In this document: positions 2,817 to 56,394 of the stretch, piece after piece
How positions within the stretch are numbered: position 1 is the stretch's first letter
How the letters are laid out: every line of letters starts with the position of its first letter
Assembly: GCF_000340215.1 (NCBI RefSeq)
Contig: NW_006921539.1
Coordinates: forward strand, 1,436,507 to 1,500,506
Direction: 5' to 3'
Length of the DNA stretch: 64,000 nucleotides
DNA from: Pseudocercospora fijiensis CIRAD86
Taxonomy: Eukaryota; Ascomycota; Dothideomycetes; Mycosphaerellales; Mycosphaerellaceae
Made by a program: the position numbers and the translations under genes
The notes under the pieces: model-generated
What the model saw: the letters and a program-made list of their open reading frames with translations, nothing else
The model's database searches: none
What the model was told of the DNA's origin: nothing

Positions 2817-3325
2817 AATCTGGGAATCTCTGCTGGGAGTACAACGGATGCGTTGTACGGATATTTCAGCAAGATCTCGAGGATGCGTCTGATGAAGCTC
2901 AGTATTGATCCCCCATGGACGTGGAGCTCAGCGGGGACGCATCTTCCGAGCAACGCACGCTTGCCGAGGCTGATCACTCATTCATTACCTCGTTTTCAGC
3001 AGCTTTCTCGTCAAGACGATCTGCTCTGTGCGATGCCTTGATCTCAGGTTGCTGTGTGTTCTATATTTGTGACGCCGTAAGGAGGAGCCGAAGCTTTCTC
3101 CGGCCAGACTCGGCATGTTCCAAACCCGGAAACTGAAGGCTTCTTCAGCCACATTCCTACAACTTCTTCTCACATCTTTACCCTTATACGGAGCTGACTG
3201 GGACTGAGATCTCAAATGGATCTGATGGGTCATCAAGTCACCTCCAACAATTTTCCTCCCAGAAGGAGTATTGCGGCAACATATACGATTTGCAGAACAC
3301 CGCAGCCAATCACAATAGAGATACG
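2817..3325. other. Intergenic stretch upstream of the hydratase and the tRNA gene
   Basis: Only short overlapping frames are visible. It must hold the hydratase promoter (read leftward) and the 5' flank of tRNA-Asn. No other structure seen. Confidence 0.4.
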
Positions 3326-3478
3326 TCCCCCATGGCGCAATTGGCTAGCGCGTTCGACTGTTACTCGTTTGGTGAGAAATGGAATCGGGAGGTTGATAGG
3401 TAAGAATACCTCATTACACATACAGCTGATTGTATTCACCACTAACACCGCCTTTCAGTTCGAGCCTATCTGGGGGAG
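3326..3478 (+). tRNA. tRNA-Asn(GTT) with anticodon-loop intron and a second, mRNA-type intron in the T arm
   Basis: The cloverleaf closes fully after two inserts are removed. The acceptor stem TCCCCCA/TGGGGGA has seven pairs, with discriminator G73. The D stem is GCGC/GCGC with loop AATTGGCTA. The anticodon stem is TTCGA/TCGGG with two outer G-T pairs and loop CTGTTAA, anticodon GTT. The T stem is GATAG/CTATC with loop TTCGAGC. Insert 1 is the normal eukaryotic intron after base 37 (3364-3383, 20 nt). Insert 2 (3400-3458, 59 nt) lies exactly between positions 53 and 54. It starts GTAAGA, contains CACTAAC and ends CTTTCAG. The mature RNA is 74 nt before CCA. The A box TGGCGCAATTGG is intact; the B box is split but rebuilt by the AG that ends insert 2 (AGTTCGAGCC). 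A TTTT terminator follows at 3486-3489. It could be a defective copy, but a second copy with the same architecture argues against that. Confidence 0.85.
3400..3458 (+). other. Putative spliceosomal intron inside tRNA-Asn (copy 1)
   Basis: 59 nt with GTAAGA at the 5' end, ACTAAC about 13 nt before the 3' end, a short pyrimidine run and terminal CAG. Its removal leaves a perfect 5 bp T stem and a 7 nt T loop. These are the signals of the mRNA introns in this same window. Use of the spliceosome is inferred, not shown. Confidence 0.7.
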
Positions 3479-3662
3479 ATAAATCTTTTGCTCTCTACGA
3501 TGTTTTCAGTTCGTTTGAACTAGAAAAGTGAGATTGTTTCGAGCTTTTTGTGGGACTTGTCATTGTGCTCGTATTTGGTCAGGAAACGCCATTGGGATAA
3601 GAAACGATCGATCGATAGAACAAGTCGAGCTGAATGCAATGGATCAAGATTGACAATTCACA

Positions 3663-34927: not shown

Positions 34928-37414
34928 TCACTGTGGTCTGCATACCAGATATCCTCTCGCATCTCGCTTGGGCTTCGGCTTTGATGGGGCTTTGGGTGCT
35001 GTGGGCCCTCGCATTCTCGTCGCCGCACCTTTGCTCAGCTCGTCGCCTTTCCCTTTCTTCTCGACATGCGCGTTGATGATGTGCGCAACTTCTCCCATCG
35101 CCGAGTGCTCCAGCGGAGTTCGCAGCCGCTCAGCCTCTGCAGCACGGTCAAAGATGGCGAGCACAAGCATGTCCTCGTACTTGGTGCACAGTTCCGGTAT
35201 CGTGTCTGCGACGGCGCGACGAATGTTGTCCAACATCTCCCAGCACGCCATCCAGAAGGAGACATAATCGAAGTTGAGCGGCATGTCCTCCGCAATCCTC
35301 ATCTTCTTGTACGTCTCTAAGAGTTGGAGGCCGGTAAACTTTGGCTTTTGACCAGAGCCTGGTCTGCGCGATGTCGTCTTCTGCCTGTCGGCATCGCTCT
35401 TCTCCGTCATCTTCTCCAAAAGCGCGAAAAAAGGATCCCGATGCGACACTGGCGCCTTCTCGCGGCCATAGAGCTCGTCGCTGGCCAAGCTGAGCTCACA
35501 GGGTGTGTCGAACATTCTTTGCTGCGCGCGTCGAGGCACTGCTGACCAGCTTTGTGCTGCTCTCGGCATGGCCTTGAGACGCGCCAGCATCGTAATGGGC
35601 GTGCCCAGCGCAAGCGAGAAGTGGCGAGAAAAGGAGCTCATGCCACCATACTTGCCGACATCTTGCACGAAGGCGCGACGCTTGCTATGCTGCTCCAAGA
35701 ACCACTCCATATCTGTCCACGCCGTACGCAAGAGCTTTGCATGGCGTGCTGCTTTGTAGAGATGGGCCACGGCAAGAATGACACAGCCGTCGTTGCCAAT
35801 ATGCACTCCAGCATCGTGCATCAAGGCATGGTGCGCATCCACCTTCTCACCCACCAGGATATGAAGGCCTCGGAAAGCTTTCGACGGAACGCTGTCCGCA
35901 CTGGGCAGCAACGACTCGAATTGGACGCTCTTGTCCGTGGCCAAGCTCATAGTCGCTGCTTTGCGTTCGCGTTCGACCTCTTTTATCGTCTTGTCGAGCT
36001 GACTCGCATTGATGTGACTTCCATACCGCTCACGAATCTTGGCGTACTTCGAAAGCACTTCGGCGGCTTGTGTGGTACGCTCACGAAGAATCTCCAGGCC
36101 TATTGGCTCATCGCCCACGATATCGTGCATGTCCATGCAGATCTGAACGACACATACCAACCAGAGCGGGAGTTGACCTGTGACGTGCATCGTCCGCAGT
36201 CCATGGAAGAGTGCCTGTGCATCGCGCGCCGTATTCTTTAATGCGTCGAGGGAAAGCACCAGGGCGTACAGGTCCGGGAACATCTTCCACATCAGCTTCG
36301 CAAACGGATGGAAGTCCAGCCGCCCTGTCGTATCTTCCGGATGCTTGTATGACCACATTTGGCGCGCATCTTCTGGAACTCCGTCTTTGGCGCGCTCTGC
36401 CAAGAACATAGTTGTCGCGTTCCAATGGTGCCAGAAGACATGCAGTAATCCGCCTGCGTGTGGGAACAGCAGTTCTTCTCCATTGCCGGCGTCGCTAGCC
36501 ACGAATTCCGTTCCTTCTGCGAGCACGGTGGGGATCTGAGTCCAGGAATTCACTCTGGTCTCGTAGCCCAGCAGGTCCAAGACATGAGGGTAGTGCGCCA
36601 CCTCGGGATGTTCCTCAGCTACGGCATCGCCTGCACGCCGGACAATGCCCATCGCTGTCTCCGTAATCACCGCCGCAGCTTCAAAGCTCATGCGACGCTC
36701 GTCGCGCCACTCGTGCCAGATCTGCTTGACGAAGTCTCGAATCTCTTTGGCATCCTGGAGGAAACACCAGATCGAAAAACGCTTCTCTGCGCTCTTGTCG
36801 ACTTGTAGCGTTGCCGGAGCTCGCGGAGCAGAGTCCTTGCGCTCTTTCTTCGATGCCGCGGAAGACCAAGCAGCCTCGCACGGTTCCTCGATTTGCAAGT
36901 TCTGGAAAAGATTGTTGAGTTTTTCGGTGGCCTTTGGTGGATGAGAAGCATGATCCTCCTGCGCACTCGCTTTTGTCGTTCTCGACTTCTTAGATCGCGT
37001 AGCCCTGGCGTCTCTCAGCAACACAAGCATATCTTCCAAGACCGACACGAAGTGCGCATGACTACGATCGCTTTCGATCTCTGCCGCAGACCTCGCGTGC
37101 TGGATCGTGTAAAATTCCGCGCACAAAGATCTCCCAGCTATCACATCTGCTATGTGTCAGTACACGATCGCATTCGGGAGTTTGAGAGACGAGCCTTCAA
37201 GCAATTCAATCGTGCTGACCGGAATCTCAACAGGTGGCTTCCATTCCACAATTGATCTTGTGCACTCCAGAAGCTCTTTCGTGGAAACGGTCCCATCACT
37301 GGACTTGACAAAACTTCTCCGACATGAGGAAGCGGTCTTGATTATCCAGCGGACGAGGCGATCGGTGCCTTCCTTGTACATGCAGTACCGACTGCTGAGC
37401 TGTTCTGTCGACAT
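34928..37414 (-). CDS. DUF6604-type fungal protein, copy 1
   Basis: 812 aa if exons 37195-37414 and 34928-37146 are joined. The N-terminus reads YKEGTDRLVRWIIKTASSC, the start of the fungal DUF6604 domain, which continues to about residue 250. The rest is helical with no known motif, including FSIWCFLQDAKEIRDFV and PLNFDYVSFWMACWEMLDN, and ends in a basic Ala/Lys/Pro tail. The whole length aligns with the gene at 46189-48822. The intron is atypical: 48 nt, GC at the 5' end (GCTCGT), branch TACTGAC, end GCAG. Without it an in-frame TGA at 37157-37159 would stop translation. Alignment to the paralogue (ELL then VIxGR) supports removing exactly these 48 nt. Function unknown. Confidence 0.75.
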
Positions 37415-46188: not shown

Positions 46189-48822
46189 CTACTCTGCTTG
46201 AGCGGAATGATCATGGCTGTCCAGCTTCCGCACGTCAGCGACAGCGCTGATGATACTCAAAGCTTTCTGCTCAGATCCCTCCGGATCGTAAATCGTGATA
46301 CCATTGGCATCTTTGCGTATCGTTAAATCGCCAAACTGCTTAGTGATGAGCCCAAGATGGCAGCAGCAGGGCTTGAATTGCCGGAGATTCGGGCGCAGAT
46401 CTTTAGGTATTCTGCCGCTGGACTGGCTGAATGCCATTGTGGAGAACTGCTTTCCTTGGTCACCGCTGACGGCCTCGTTCAAGACAGCGGCTGCAGCAGA
46501 GAGCGGCGAGTGCAGCAATGTCTTGTTGCCGGTAGCTGTATCCTCGAGCACTTTGTAGACAAATTGCCAAGGCTCGAGAACACCTGTGACTGTACTCAGT
46601 TGGGGACACAGCTTCGCGCATAGAGCCCCATAAACCTTGTCGCAGAAACGCCAGAATGCGAAATGATCGAAGTTAAGCTGAGGCTCCTCCTTCACAAAGT
46701 TCGTCTTGAAAGTATCGAGCAGTTCTGTCAAAGAATAGACATCTCTCCTGCTCGAAGCTGGTCCGCTTGGCTTTTGTTTGGCGATGCCCGCTGGACCTGC
46801 TATTTTCTTGGCCAGTTGCGCGAGCACAACCTCGATGACATTGCCTCTAGTGAAACCCATCTTTCTGTCTTGTTTCACCCTCTCATTGAATGCCATCATC
46901 ATTTCACAAGTAGGAATGATCTTGCGACCCCGTAGCAAAACATCCTTGCTCTCAGGATACTGCGGCGTTTGCCCATTCGCAAACTTGCTTGCCGGAACTC
47001 CAAGAGCCACGATGTATTGACGAAACAGGCGGCGGGCATCAGAGTTATTGCTGCTTGATCTTGACACCACCGGGCTCTGCCCCTTCTGGAAGGCGAGTAT
47101 GGCTTCCATGTCATGCCATTGGGTATGCATGAGCCCTAGCCGACGACAGGCTGAGTAGAGGTGACCCATTGCCACCATCATCCCGCCGTCGTTTGCTGAC
47201 GTGGTTCCAAGAGTATGCCAGTAGCCTTTAGCAACCCAGAGAGCCATGCCAGGGGCGCAGGGCAGAACAGCCAATGAACCCAAAGGTTTACCCACAGACT
47301 GGGGAATGCCGTATCGCATGATGTTCTGCAAACGCTCCTTGTGTAGCGGATCAAGCTTTGCTGGAGCTTGTTCTTCACATGCTCTCATGAAGCCGTCCGC
47401 AAGCCCAGACGAAACTCTTGTGACTTCTAATGCTGATCGAGACAGCTCTATAGCATCGCGTATAGATTTTTCACAGGCATCTGACTCATACTGCCAATAT
47501 GTATGATTTGCTTTGAAGTTCTTCCACGTCTGCTCCAACCGCTCCATCTCATCGAGGTAAAATTCAGATGCACACGCCGGGTCTTCGCCAATGATTTCGT
47601 ATATGTCCGAGTAAGTCTGTGCGGCTGACACGAGCCACATTGGAAGCTCGCCGGTCTTGCAGAAGTCCAAAAGACCAATCAAGAACTCAGGACGTCTCCG
47701 CGTGTGGTCTTTGCTGCCTACCTTGTGCGTCTTCGTCAACATTGCCAGGTAGTAGGTCTGGTGGTATAGGATGTATGCGAAGCTGAAGAATGGTCGGATC
47801 ATGAGGAGGGAGACATTTTTGCTTTGATCGAGTGTCTTCTCCAACTGCTTCGTATGCGACCTGACGTCTTGTAGAAGCGAAGCGATGGCCGGACACAATA
47901 GCTCAATCATGTCCAGGTCGTGTCTTGCCGTGTGGGAAGGTTTACCAGCCTCGGGATACAAATAAGCCGTACAAAGGTCCTCATTTGTGGCTAGTGGCTT
48001 ATTTGCTGAAGTGCATCTGAGTGACAAGAACCGCAGTGTGCCATTCCAAGAGCTAAGCTCGGGATAGTTCGACGCTAGTTCTTCGCCAGCAAAACGCATC
48101 AGCGACATGGCTGTGTCGGCGACCATTGTGGCTGCTAGAAGGCTGACTTCGCCTCGTGCGTACTGCTGCCACACGTCCTGTACGTATCGGCGCAAGTCAC
48201 GCAGGTCTTCGCAGTGACACCAGAGCGCAAAAGCAGCGTCCTGCGCATCATCTTCGAGCACTACATTGGTACTCTCCGGAGTGGTGGCCTTCTGATTGGG
48301 GCTAGGCGCCGAGCCAAGCGGTGTGGCAGACGGCTCTTCAACTTCCAGTCGCGCAAAGATATTACTGAGTTCCGATTCCAGGCTCTTTGCACTCGATTTG
48401 GTCTCCTGAGAGCGAGCTTGCGGGAATTCACACTTGGCGGGCGGCGCTCGAAGAGCAGCGAGCTGTTTATGGACATCCTCGAGTATTTGTATGAAGAAGA
48501 GGTGTGAGTTGTTTGCCGCGACATCGCTGCTGTGCTGACTGGCATAAAATACTGCGCAAGCTTTCCGACCTTCGATGACCTTCACAAGGAGCTCGACAAT
48601 GGCGAGAGGGACAGTCGCGTCGGCTGAAGTGATTATCTTTGCAAGACTCATCAGATCTCGAGCCTTGATGGTGGACTTCGACTTCTTCTGTGGCGTGTCA
48701 AGAATATGCGCGATGTCGCGAAGGGTGCTGGCGGTGCGTAGTAGCCAGTCAACAATTTTCTTAGTCCCCGCCTTATACAGAAGATGCCGACCGCGCACGG
48801 ATGGCCTGCTGCTGTCAGACAT
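46189..48822 (-). CDS. DUF6604-type fungal protein, copy 2
   Basis: Intronless, 877 aa from ATG 48822 (MSDSSRPSVRGRHLLYKAG). The DUF6604 N-terminal motif is YKAGTKKIVDWLLRTASTL, and the region VIEGRKACAVFYASQ matches VIAGRSLCAEFY of copy 1. Other shared blocks are ALWCHCEDLRDLRRYVQDVW and LNFDHFAFWRFCDKVYGAL. It is about 65 aa longer than copy 1, mainly in the linker and C-terminus. The C-terminal 40 residues (DLTIRKDANGITIYDPEGS) look like a small beta-rich extension. Function unknown. It lacks the intron of copy 1, so the two are old duplicates that diverged. Confidence 0.8.
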   Translation of the reverse strand: MSDSSRPSVRGRHLLYKAGTKKIVDWLLRTASTLRDIAHILDTPQKKSKSTIKARDLMSLAKIITSADATVPLAIVELLVKVIEGRKACAVFYASQHSSDVAANNSHLFFIQILEDVHKQLAALRAPPAKCEFPQARSQETKSSAKSLESELSNIFARLEVEEPSATPLGSAPSPNQKATTPESTNVVLEDDAQDAAFALWCHCEDLRDLRRYVQDVWQQYARGEVSLLAATMVADTAMSLMRFAGEELASNYPELSSWNGTLRFLSLRCTSANKPLATNEDLCTAYLYPEAGKPSHTARHDLDMIELLCPAIASLLQDVRSHTKQLEKTLDQSKNVSLLMIRPFFSFAYILYHQTYYLAMLTKTHKVGSKDHTRRRPEFLIGLLDFCKTGELPMWLVSAAQTYSDIYEIIGEDPACASEFYLDEMERLEQTWKNFKANHTYWQYESDACEKSIRDAIELSRSALEVTRVSSGLADGFMRACEEQAPAKLDPLHKERLQNIMRYGIPQSVGKPLGSLAVLPCAPGMALWVAKGYWHTLGTTSANDGGMMVAMGHLYSACRRLGLMHTQWHDMEAILAFQKGQSPVVSRSSSNNSDARRLFRQYIVALGVPASKFANGQTPQYPESKDVLLRGRKIIPTCEMMMAFNERVKQDRKMGFTRGNVIEVVLAQLAKKIAGPAGIAKQKPSGPASSRRDVYSLTELLDTFKTNFVKEEPQLNFDHFAFWRFCDKVYGALCAKLCPQLSTVTGVLEPWQFVYKVLEDTATGNKTLLHSPLSAAAAVLNEAVSGDQGKQFSTMAFSQSSGRIPKDLRPNLRQFKPCCCHLGLITKQFGDLTIRKDANGITIYDPEGSEQKALSIISAVADVRKLDSHDHSAQAE

Positions 48823-49269
48823 GTTCGCGGTGTATGTGTTGCGAAGGTGTTGAGAATGCCATAGCTTTACTTTCAATGATGGAAGGCGAGCGAAGTGAGC
48901 TTCAAATTAAAGTTCTGGAGCTTGGGCCCTGGCATGTGAACGGCGCTGCATGAACATTCCATCCACTTCAGGTCTCACATGCAAGTTGGCCATGACTCCT
49001 TCCCACTCTGCGCCACAGGACGTTACAAAGTGCTATTAAGAGAGGGTTCATCACGGACCGGGCGGGCGACGATGCTTGCAGATGAGGCATGCGAGATTCT
49101 TCGCAAGATGTAGTCGAGGCACGATGCACAGGCACGTGGAAACTGGAGAATCGGTTATGCAGCGGAGGGACTCGCAGTCCACTTCGTTCCAGAAAGTGCA
49201 GACTATAGACGCAGGTGTGGAGATGACAGCCTCTGCGACATCACGCAGCTATTCGAAGCCTAGATGCTC
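48823..49269. other. Intergenic stretch, no recognised gene
   Basis: 447 bp between the DUF6604 start and the RBM25-like stop. Promoter of the former; no gene. Confidence 0.4.
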
Positions 49270-55434: not shown

Positions 55435-55929
55435 AATCTCGCGGTCGGCGATGTGAAGAAAGATTCCACGAGGCTTTAAGTTTTGTGACGATTTTCAGGA
55501 CTCCGACGCCGTCTCCCTCAATCGCAGTGCGTCGAAGCTAGGGGAAATGTTTGATCAATGATTGAGGCTGAGGGATCTGCAAGCATACCATTTATGGAGT
55601 GAGAGGGAGGATAGCATCTTGGTGTATAGAAGTAGAAGTTATTGAACAGAATGCAGGTTGATAAGGCACTCCAAAATGCATCTCGTTCCTGGTGTGGTCA
55701 TCGCAGGCTCTCAGGCTTGCCCAGCCGTTGGCGTGTCAAGCTGCCAGTACTAGAATCTATTTGTTCAATGCGTACTCAAACGAGGGACCCGAAGCTAAGA
55801 GTTAAGCACCGAAGGCATACTAAAACCTAGATCTGCAAAAAATGAACTCGGTCTCTTCTATCGATTTTAATTGCTTTGATAATTCTATCTACTTTTAATA
55901 ATATATTCTACAAAATAGCAAAAAAAAAT
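55435..55929. other. Intergenic stretch between the 2EXR-like gene and tRNA-Asn
   Basis: The 3' flanks of both. AT-rich from 55850, with a run of nine A at 55920-55928 that is the T9 terminator of the minus-strand tRNA gene. Confidence 0.5.
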
Positions 55930-56076
55930 CTCCCCCAGATAGGCTCGAACTGAAAGGCGGACGTTAGCAGGACTTAAGTTAGAGTATTGAGTGGTAAGGC
56001 TTACCTATCAACCTCCCGATACCATTTCTCAAAGCGAGTAACAGTCGAACGCGCTAGCCAATTGCGCCATGGGGGA
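55930..56076 (-). tRNA. tRNA-Asn(GTT), second copy, same two-intron architecture
   Basis: Read on the minus strand, the 74 nt mature sequence is identical to that of the gene at 3326-3478, including acceptor TCCCCCA/TGGGGGA, anticodon GTT and G73. The anticodon-loop intron is 18 nt (56021-56038), two shorter than in copy 1. The T-arm insert is 55 nt (55950-56004), placed between positions 53 and 54 exactly as in copy 1. It starts GTAAGC, has TGCTAAC near the end and finishes CGCCTTTCAG. A T9 terminator follows directly. Identical exons, diverged inserts and a strong terminator suggest an active gene under selection, not a relic. Confidence 0.87.
55950..56004 (-). other. Putative spliceosomal intron inside tRNA-Asn (copy 2)
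   Basis: 55 nt, donor GTAAGC, branch TGCTAAC, acceptor CTTTCAG. Its middle is unrelated to the 59 nt insert of copy 1 apart from these signals and the last ten bases CGCCTTTCAG. Confidence 0.7.
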
Positions 56077-56394
56077 TATACTGGTTGGATAAGAGTGCCA
56101 AAATCTTGCATGTATATGGATGTGGGTTTGCCAAGAGACAGGACGGAACCCGAGAATAGCGCCGAACTGAGCAGGGCATTTGTTTGCTGGGCCTTCGCGT
56201 CGACGAATCATTGGGTTGACATTCGTATCATGAAAAGAAAACAGTTGATATATGTACATTCTCTGCACCAAAATTCTGTCGTTCTGCCATTTCTTTCGCG
56301 CACTTGTGGTATCAATAAACAGTTACTCGAACAGCAGACGTACAGATTCTCATTCTTAGCCACTTCGCCCACCAAACCTTGTTTTTTTTTTGAA

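Follow-up and report, generated by a model that had tools for sequence, protein, structure and literature searches.

Predicted spliceosome-type introns in nuclear tRNA genes of a dothideomycete fungus

In textbook accounts, introns of nuclear tRNAs are removed by the tRNA endonuclease at position 37/38. A tRNA-Asn(GTT) gene in a 64,000-nucleotide stretch of the Pseudocercospora fijiensis genome (the window; G000:C8:1436507-1500506 in a 73.9-Mb assembly of 30 contigs) raises the question of whether such a gene can additionally carry an intron of the mRNA type and depend on the spliceosome for its removal. The first-pass annotation of this DNA had placed an insert of this kind in the T arm of the gene, here called copy 1, which we read as follows.

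3326..3478, plus strand: tRNA-Asn(GTT) copy 1, with three exons and two introns (sequence reading)
3326-3363, 3384-3399 and 3459-3478, plus strand: exons of copy 1 (sequence reading)
3364..3383, plus strand: canonical 37/38 tRNA intron of copy 1, 20 nt (sequence reading)
3400..3458, plus strand: spliceosome-type intron of copy 1 at 53/54, 59 nt (sequence reading, splice signals)
3400..3405, plus strand: GTAAGA, 5' splice-site-like
3440..3446, plus strand: CACTAAC, branch-point-like, 12 nt ahead of the intron end
3456..3466, plus strand: 3' splice site CAG followed by TTCGAGCC
3281..3286, plus strand: ATATAC element, 45 nt upstream of copy 1
3306..3312, plus strand: CCAATCA element upstream of copy 1
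3486..3489, plus strand: TTTT, Pol III terminator-like

The sequence confirms that the 59-nt insert lies exactly at 53/54 and that the same gene has a canonical 20-nt intron at 37/38. The GTAAGA start, the CACTAAC element and the CAG end ascribed to the insert are likewise in place, with the branch-point-like element 12 nt from the end of the insert instead of the proposed ~13. The spliced RNA can pair an acceptor stem (TCCCCCA/TGGGGGA), a D stem (GCGC/GCGC), a T stem (GATAG/CTATC) and an anticodon stem with two G-T pairs, and ARAGORN recognizes it as tRNA-Asn(gtt). The cloverleaf had been described as flawless, and this holds for the four pairable stems but not for the minimum free energy (MFE) fold, which in ViennaRNA is a rival long hairpin; across the interrupted genes described here, MFE folding of the spliced RNAs gives a cloverleaf for tRNA-Phe but not for tRNA-Asn or tRNA-Glu.

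A second interrupted tRNA-Asn gene is present in the window on the opposite strand.

55930..56076, minus strand: tRNA-Asn(GTT) copy 2, exons identical to those of copy 1 (sequence reading)
56021..56038, minus strand: canonical 37/38 intron of copy 2, 18 nt
55950..56004, minus strand: spliceosome-type intron of copy 2 at 53/54, 55 nt, GTAAGC...TGCTAAC...CAG
55963..55969, minus strand: TGCTAAC, branch-point-like, 13 nt ahead of the intron end
56112..56117, minus strand: ATATAC element upstream of copy 2
55920..55928, minus strand: run of nine T residues (T9), Pol III terminator-like

Copies 1 and 2 agree at 74/74 exon positions, and their 53/54 introns match at 40/53 positions with gaps; the two inserts are of common ancestry and do not count as independent observations. 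A search of the assembly with GCGCGTTCGACTGTTA found exact matches in three tRNA-Asn genes, one of them with an intact T arm (Asn3, C8:379034), and a fourth place with one mismatch that by eye is no tRNA. The 153-nt gene used as a query likewise matched only three places in the assembly, all of them tRNA-Asn, a count that is a lower bound. An intact tRNA-Asn set elsewhere in the genome had been named as an observation that would speak against the intron, and what we find goes part of the way towards it, a single gene with an uninterrupted T arm alongside two interrupted ones. Elsewhere in the window, two reading frames contain DUF6604 domains (34928-37156 and 46189-48906 (-)). The window also encodes a CFT1 protein whose first 1025 residues share 86% identity with that of Pseudocercospora musae, the top match among the 120 listed of 1735.

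Comparable interruptions were identified in genes for two other isotypes of the same assembly.

C3:746612: Phe1, tRNA-Phe(GAA) (L044), with inserts at 4/5 and 53/54
C1:8362808: Phe2, tRNA-Phe(GAA) (L053), with an insert at 53/54
C8:1752991: Glu, tRNA-Glu(CTC) (L041/L048), with inserts at 15/16 and 53/54

Together with the Asn pair, this makes five interrupted genes, which represent three isotypes and contain seven inserts. The inserts fall at three kinds of site: at 53/54 in both Asn genes, both Phe genes and the Glu gene, at 4/5 in Phe1, and at 15/16 in Glu. The acceptor-stem insert of Phe1 (56 nt, GTATGT...GACTAAT...AAG) is positioned between the 5' exon GTCG and CTTTAGCTC; its removal yields GTCGCTTTAGCTC, an exact match to Phe2, where this insert is absent. 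The D-loop insert of Glu (60 nt, GTAAGT...GCTGAC...CAG) separates TCCGATGTGGTGTAG from TGGCTAGCAT. As with the Asn pair, the two Phe genes have identical exons (73/73) and 53/54 introns that differ (46/51 with a gap). We also observed a Gln-like tRNA 3' half (L057, ~1500; G000:C9:763833-763888) with an insert at 53/54 of the form GTAAGC...CTGAC...TAG; no 5' half was found within its 3-kb locus, and this fragment is probably a relic.

The manner in which these inserts were recovered determines how their signals should be weighed. The pattern CTAACN{5,25}YAGTTCRANNCC matched five places in the assembly, one of which is an interrupted tRNA, tRNA-Glu(CTC) (8 for the reversed-pattern control), while CTAACN{5,20}CAGTTCRANNC matched six, namely, both Asn genes, Glu, Phe1 and two sites that by eye are no tRNA (reversed control, 13). 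A two-gap pattern matched seven places, comprising both Asn genes, Phe2, L057, an intron in an Rpb12-like gene (L052) and two sites without a tRNA (reversed control, 13), and its TTCAA counterpart matched two, Glu and a coding intron of a sugar transporter (reversed control, 6). As none of these genome-wide counts exceeds that of its reversed control, the evidence is in the location of the matches and not in their number. Matches at L039, L040, L042, L043, L045, L049, L054 and L058 are not interrupted tRNA genes, and those at L052 and L073 are coding. Of the three places matched by a separate D-arm pattern, one is the Glu gene again, another is a tRNA-Gly(CCC), and the last is an unusual tRNA-like locus. 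The two-gap patterns cover a restricted range of lengths and missed Phe1, so that further interrupted genes may exist. Because three of the five T-arm inserts (both Phe and Glu) were found with patterns containing splice signals, their fit to such signals is by construction; the remaining four of the seven were picked by no pattern, the Asn pair having come from the first-pass annotation and the Phe 4/5 and Glu 15/16 inserts having emerged when the respective tRNAs were completed.

With three of the seven pattern-found in this way, every insert starts with GTRNG, ends with AG and has a CTRAY element 9-13 nt from its end. All are 51-63 nt long, directly follow an exonic G at the 5' site and lack TTTT. 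Among 400,000 random 48-64-nt segments of the window, each taken in three registers, 1.1% have the GT..AG ends, and 0.009% (9e-5) also combine GTRNG with CTRAY 4-25 nt from the end. Intron calls based on reading frames, made for the window and the loci, proved too noisy to serve as a control set, and a pair of coding introns from this genome took their place. One, in the Rpb12-like gene, is 63 nt long (GTGAGT..CTGAC..TAG), with a Pfam match on exon 1 and a joined frame that continues to a stop; the other, in the sugar transporter gene, is 54 nt long (GTACGT..CTGAC..CAG), and the Pfam Sugar_tr domain spans the joined exons. In size and signals the tRNA inserts resemble these coding introns (n = 2), one of which contains TTTT, in contrast to none of the seven tRNA inserts.

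The gene finders used largely miss these genes as they stand. ARAGORN called none of the five from the unspliced sequence, and after in-script removal of the inserts it called all five, as Asn(gtt) twice, Phe(gaa) twice and Glu(ctc). Phe1 was called only with both inserts removed, and Glu was called with just the T-arm insert removed, at the price of an odd 73-nt intron. ARAGORN often accepted shifted cuts as well, as seen in Asn1, Asn2 and Phe2, the three genes tried for this, and was therefore dropped as a test of exact boundaries; these are instead taken from stem pairing and splice signals. Neither Asn copy was detected in the window by Rfam at gathering scores, and with E values up to 1 one of the five interrupted genes was retrieved, its 29.5 bits lying just above the cut-off of 29. 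For tRNAscan-SE 2.0, analysis of noncanonical introns is described in PMC8450103 for archaeal-mode candidates. A different tRNA-like sequence (L071 c1292-1526; G000:C1:8210246) has good acceptor, D, anticodon and T stems and an insert of ~160 nt in the anticodon loop; our own reading gives it no sensible anticodon with a single 37/38 intron, and ARAGORN calls it Thr(agt).

If the interrupted genes are functional, their products should have to be freed of the inserts wherever no uninterrupted gene can stand in, and tRNA-Phe offers the clearest case. With up to two mismatches, GAGAGCGYCAGACTGAAG matched seven places in the assembly: Phe1 and Phe2 without any mismatch, and five others, each at two mismatches, that by eye are no tRNA; the spliced tRNA-Phe used as a query returned four pieces, all inside Phe1 and Phe2. 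Neither search thus found an uninterrupted tRNA-Phe(GAA) in the assembly, though a strongly diverged or unassembled gene would escape both, and on this basis removal of the inserts looks obligatory for tRNA-Phe. The locus that bears most directly on this is L030 (G000:C1:6337008-6337089, minus strand), which ARAGORN calls Phe(gaa) with an intron at 33/34 and which we read, with a 37/38 intron, as having the anticodon CCG; were it a true tRNA-Phe, the statement that no uninterrupted Phe gene exists would fail. ARAGORN places the introns of L027, L028 and L030 at 32/33 and 33/34; none of the three was counted as tRNA-Phe(GAA). L027 and L028 (G000:C5:3511043 and C1:11104490), both called Phe(aaa) by ARAGORN, are near-identical AT-rich tRNA-like genes of 160 nt and are perhaps mutated copies of a repeat. 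For tRNA-Glu(CTC) we found one gene; the DNA of the spliced tRNA-Glu used as a query matched nothing, the known gene included, and so gives no information on copy number. Similarly, the search with the Rfam tRNA model (RF00005) returned 32 matches from 63 scored candidates out of 3083 and is no census of tRNA genes.

These observations bear on the most conservative explanation, under which the interrupted genes are decaying pseudogenes with insertions while uninterrupted genes supply the tRNAs. A tRNA-Asn gene with an intact T arm exists, L057 has the look of a relic, and L030 would be a tRNA-Phe with an uninterrupted T arm if ARAGORN's call is right; moreover, insertions in the D or T arm of eukaryotic tRNA genes are mostly taken as marks of pseudogenes, with nucleomorphs and a red alga given as exceptions in PMC4090602. 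Decay, however, is hard to reconcile with paralogs whose exons are identical while their introns differ, or with the failure of both searches to find another tRNA-Phe(GAA). All five genes have also kept T runs of 4-9 residues behind them that resemble Pol III terminators, and random insertions would not bring along the whole set of splice signals. We therefore consider it very unlikely that these are pseudogenes.

A second explanation retains functional genes and regards the inserts as tRNA-type introns at noncanonical sites, each flanked by a bulge-helix-bulge (BHB) at which the tRNA splicing endonuclease would cleave. It has precedent in archaeal introns at 53/54 and in the noncanonical introns, including some in the T and D arms, of red algal and nucleomorph tRNA genes (PMC4090602). 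We looked for such a structure, whose cleavage here by the endonuclease had been named as evidence that would count against the spliceosome, and found no full BHB in any allowed register of any of the seven inserts, although this test is weak, as three canonical control introns themselves reach just 3/4 central pairs and score little better than the inserts. Also against this explanation are the mRNA splice signals common to all seven inserts, which BHB introns do not need, and the insert lengths of 51-63 nt, which resemble the 54 and 63 nt of the coding controls. Endonuclease cleavage of these inserts is accordingly highly improbable.

The best reading of the five genes is that the inserts are U2-type spliceosomal introns in nuclear tRNA genes transcribed by Pol III, predicted from their sequences to be removed by the spliceosome, and we regard this reading as very likely. 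It supports the original proposal that a tRNA gene transcribed by Pol III contains an intron of the mRNA type and extends it to seven inserts in five genes and three isotypes, with two coding introns of like form beside them; here, Pol III transcription, spliceosomal splicing and the order of the steps are what we infer.

Sequences of the A- and B-box type are retained in the interrupted genes, with the full A box of Phe1 and Glu ~60 nt farther from the mature 5' end than is usual. In Asn copy 1, the DNA contains GTTCGA..C, which we take to be the B-box core, completed by the final G of the intron; the 53/54 intron would in this manner keep the core intact in the DNA by substituting its own final G for that of the exon. 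The end of the Glu D-loop intron, TGGCGCAG, together with the following TGG presumably rebuilds an A-box-like sequence, and the acceptor-stem intron of Phe1 is situated ahead of the A box. These positions suggest that an intron may persist only at a site where the gene remains readable to Pol III.

Farther upstream, three of the five have a TATA-like element, namely Asn1, Asn2 and Phe2, and a CCAAT element is likewise found in three (Asn1, Phe1 and Phe2), with both present ahead of the intact Asn3 and neither ahead of Glu. The CCAATCA of Phe1 lies 4 nt ahead of the 5' exon, as it does in Phe2, and the element is thus tied to the 5' exon and not to the A box. Among ordinary tRNA loci, 11/21 have a TATA-like element at -60..-20 and 9/21 a CCAAT at -40..0, compared with 4.3% and 3.6%, respectively, of random 60-mers. 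These 21 were drawn from 30 loci of the RF00005 search after leaving out L010, L011 and L018 (AT-rich, mitochondrial-like), L027, L028, L033 and L034 (AT-rich or odd) and L029 and L032 (partial). TATA-like elements, often ATATAC, and CCAAT are hence recurrent ahead of tRNA genes in this genome, which suggests that they are upstream Pol III promoter elements. A third explanation, in which spliceosomal introns interrupt transcripts of Pol II and the tRNA is cut from a capped RNA, is very unlikely: ordinary splicing is coupled to Pol II, and the Phe1 and Glu introns do displace the full A box downstream, but T runs from TTTT to T9 stand behind every gene, TTTT occurs in none of the seven introns and in one of the two coding controls, and the upstream elements are in part those of ordinary tRNA genes.

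With spliceosomal introns in Pol III transcripts, a route to the mature tRNA can be conceived. Pol III would make a precursor ending in the T run, using the A- and B-box sequences left readable by the introns, and the spliceosome would recognize GTRNG, CTRAY and AG and excise the T-arm, acceptor-stem or D-loop intron. Spliceosomal excision would probably be the first step, because the folded acceptor/T-arm domain is the substrate of RNase P, tRNase Z and the tRNA endonuclease. The 37/38 intron, where there is one, would leave afterwards by the ordinary tRNA endonuclease route.

Precedents exist for the separate parts of this scheme. Fungal U6 snRNA genes can contain a GT-AG intron in a short Pol III RNA that is removed by the spliceosome (PMC8917221), which bears out the appeal made earlier to U6 as a case of mRNA-type introns in Pol III RNA. 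The tRNA inserts would similarly be GT-AG introns in short, structured Pol III RNAs; U6, however, is itself part of the spliceosome, whereas the hosts here are tRNAs of several isotypes, interrupted at several sites, with endonuclease-type introns alongside. The two U6 matches in this genome (L050, G000:C5:4776035; L051, C9:2205067) are full length at 110 nt and have no intron. Fungal U3 snoRNA likewise has normal spliceosomal introns in a structured noncoding RNA but differs in being a snoRNA whose introns are almost exclusively in the 5' stem-loop, and PMC5832005 names U3 and U6 as the sole small structured RNAs for which frequent interruption by an intron is known to date.

The tRNA introns of archaea, nucleomorphs and Cyanidioschyzon resemble those described here in lying outside 37/38, including at 53/54 and in the acceptor stem, sometimes with several in one gene (PMC4090602); the archaeal noncanonical introns use BHB-type structures and the tRNA endonuclease, in contrast to the GT-AG and branch-point signals of our inserts. 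The string "spliceosom" is absent from the main text of that paper. Introner-like elements are a source of spliceosomal introns in the same class, Dothideomycetes, and in the study concerned P. fijiensis DNA served as the negative control when element families were examined (PMC4457414). The tRNA introns themselves form no clear common family, with one Asn-Glu pair aligning above shuffled sequences (z 5.1), a result that may stem from the splice signals common to both.

Among the literature matches listed, which comprised titles and the starts of abstracts, none described a spliceosomal intron in a nuclear tRNA gene, so an earlier report is possible; the phrase "spliceosomal splicing of tRNA" was set aside as belonging, where it appears, to a cited title on nonspliceosomal splicing. 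Thus, while mRNA-type introns in a Pol III RNA are already established for U6, as a class of tRNA intron they appear to be new.

Taken further, the arrangement of these genes makes it likely, with somewhat more reservation than for the nature of the introns, that the supply of one or more essential cytosolic tRNAs, tRNA-Phe among them, depends wholly on a spliceosome acting on Pol III precursors. On the same view, the introns would have spread among tRNA genes at positions that spare the promoter, and the maturation of a single tRNA could call for both splicing machines and as many as three rounds of splicing. If this is true, obligatory spliceosomal introns in tRNAs would couple the supply for translation to the spliceosome, and Pol III precursors besides U6 could be substrates of the latter. 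The genes would also offer intron gains with presence and absence between paralogs in genes of known product, and annotation would be missing essential genes.
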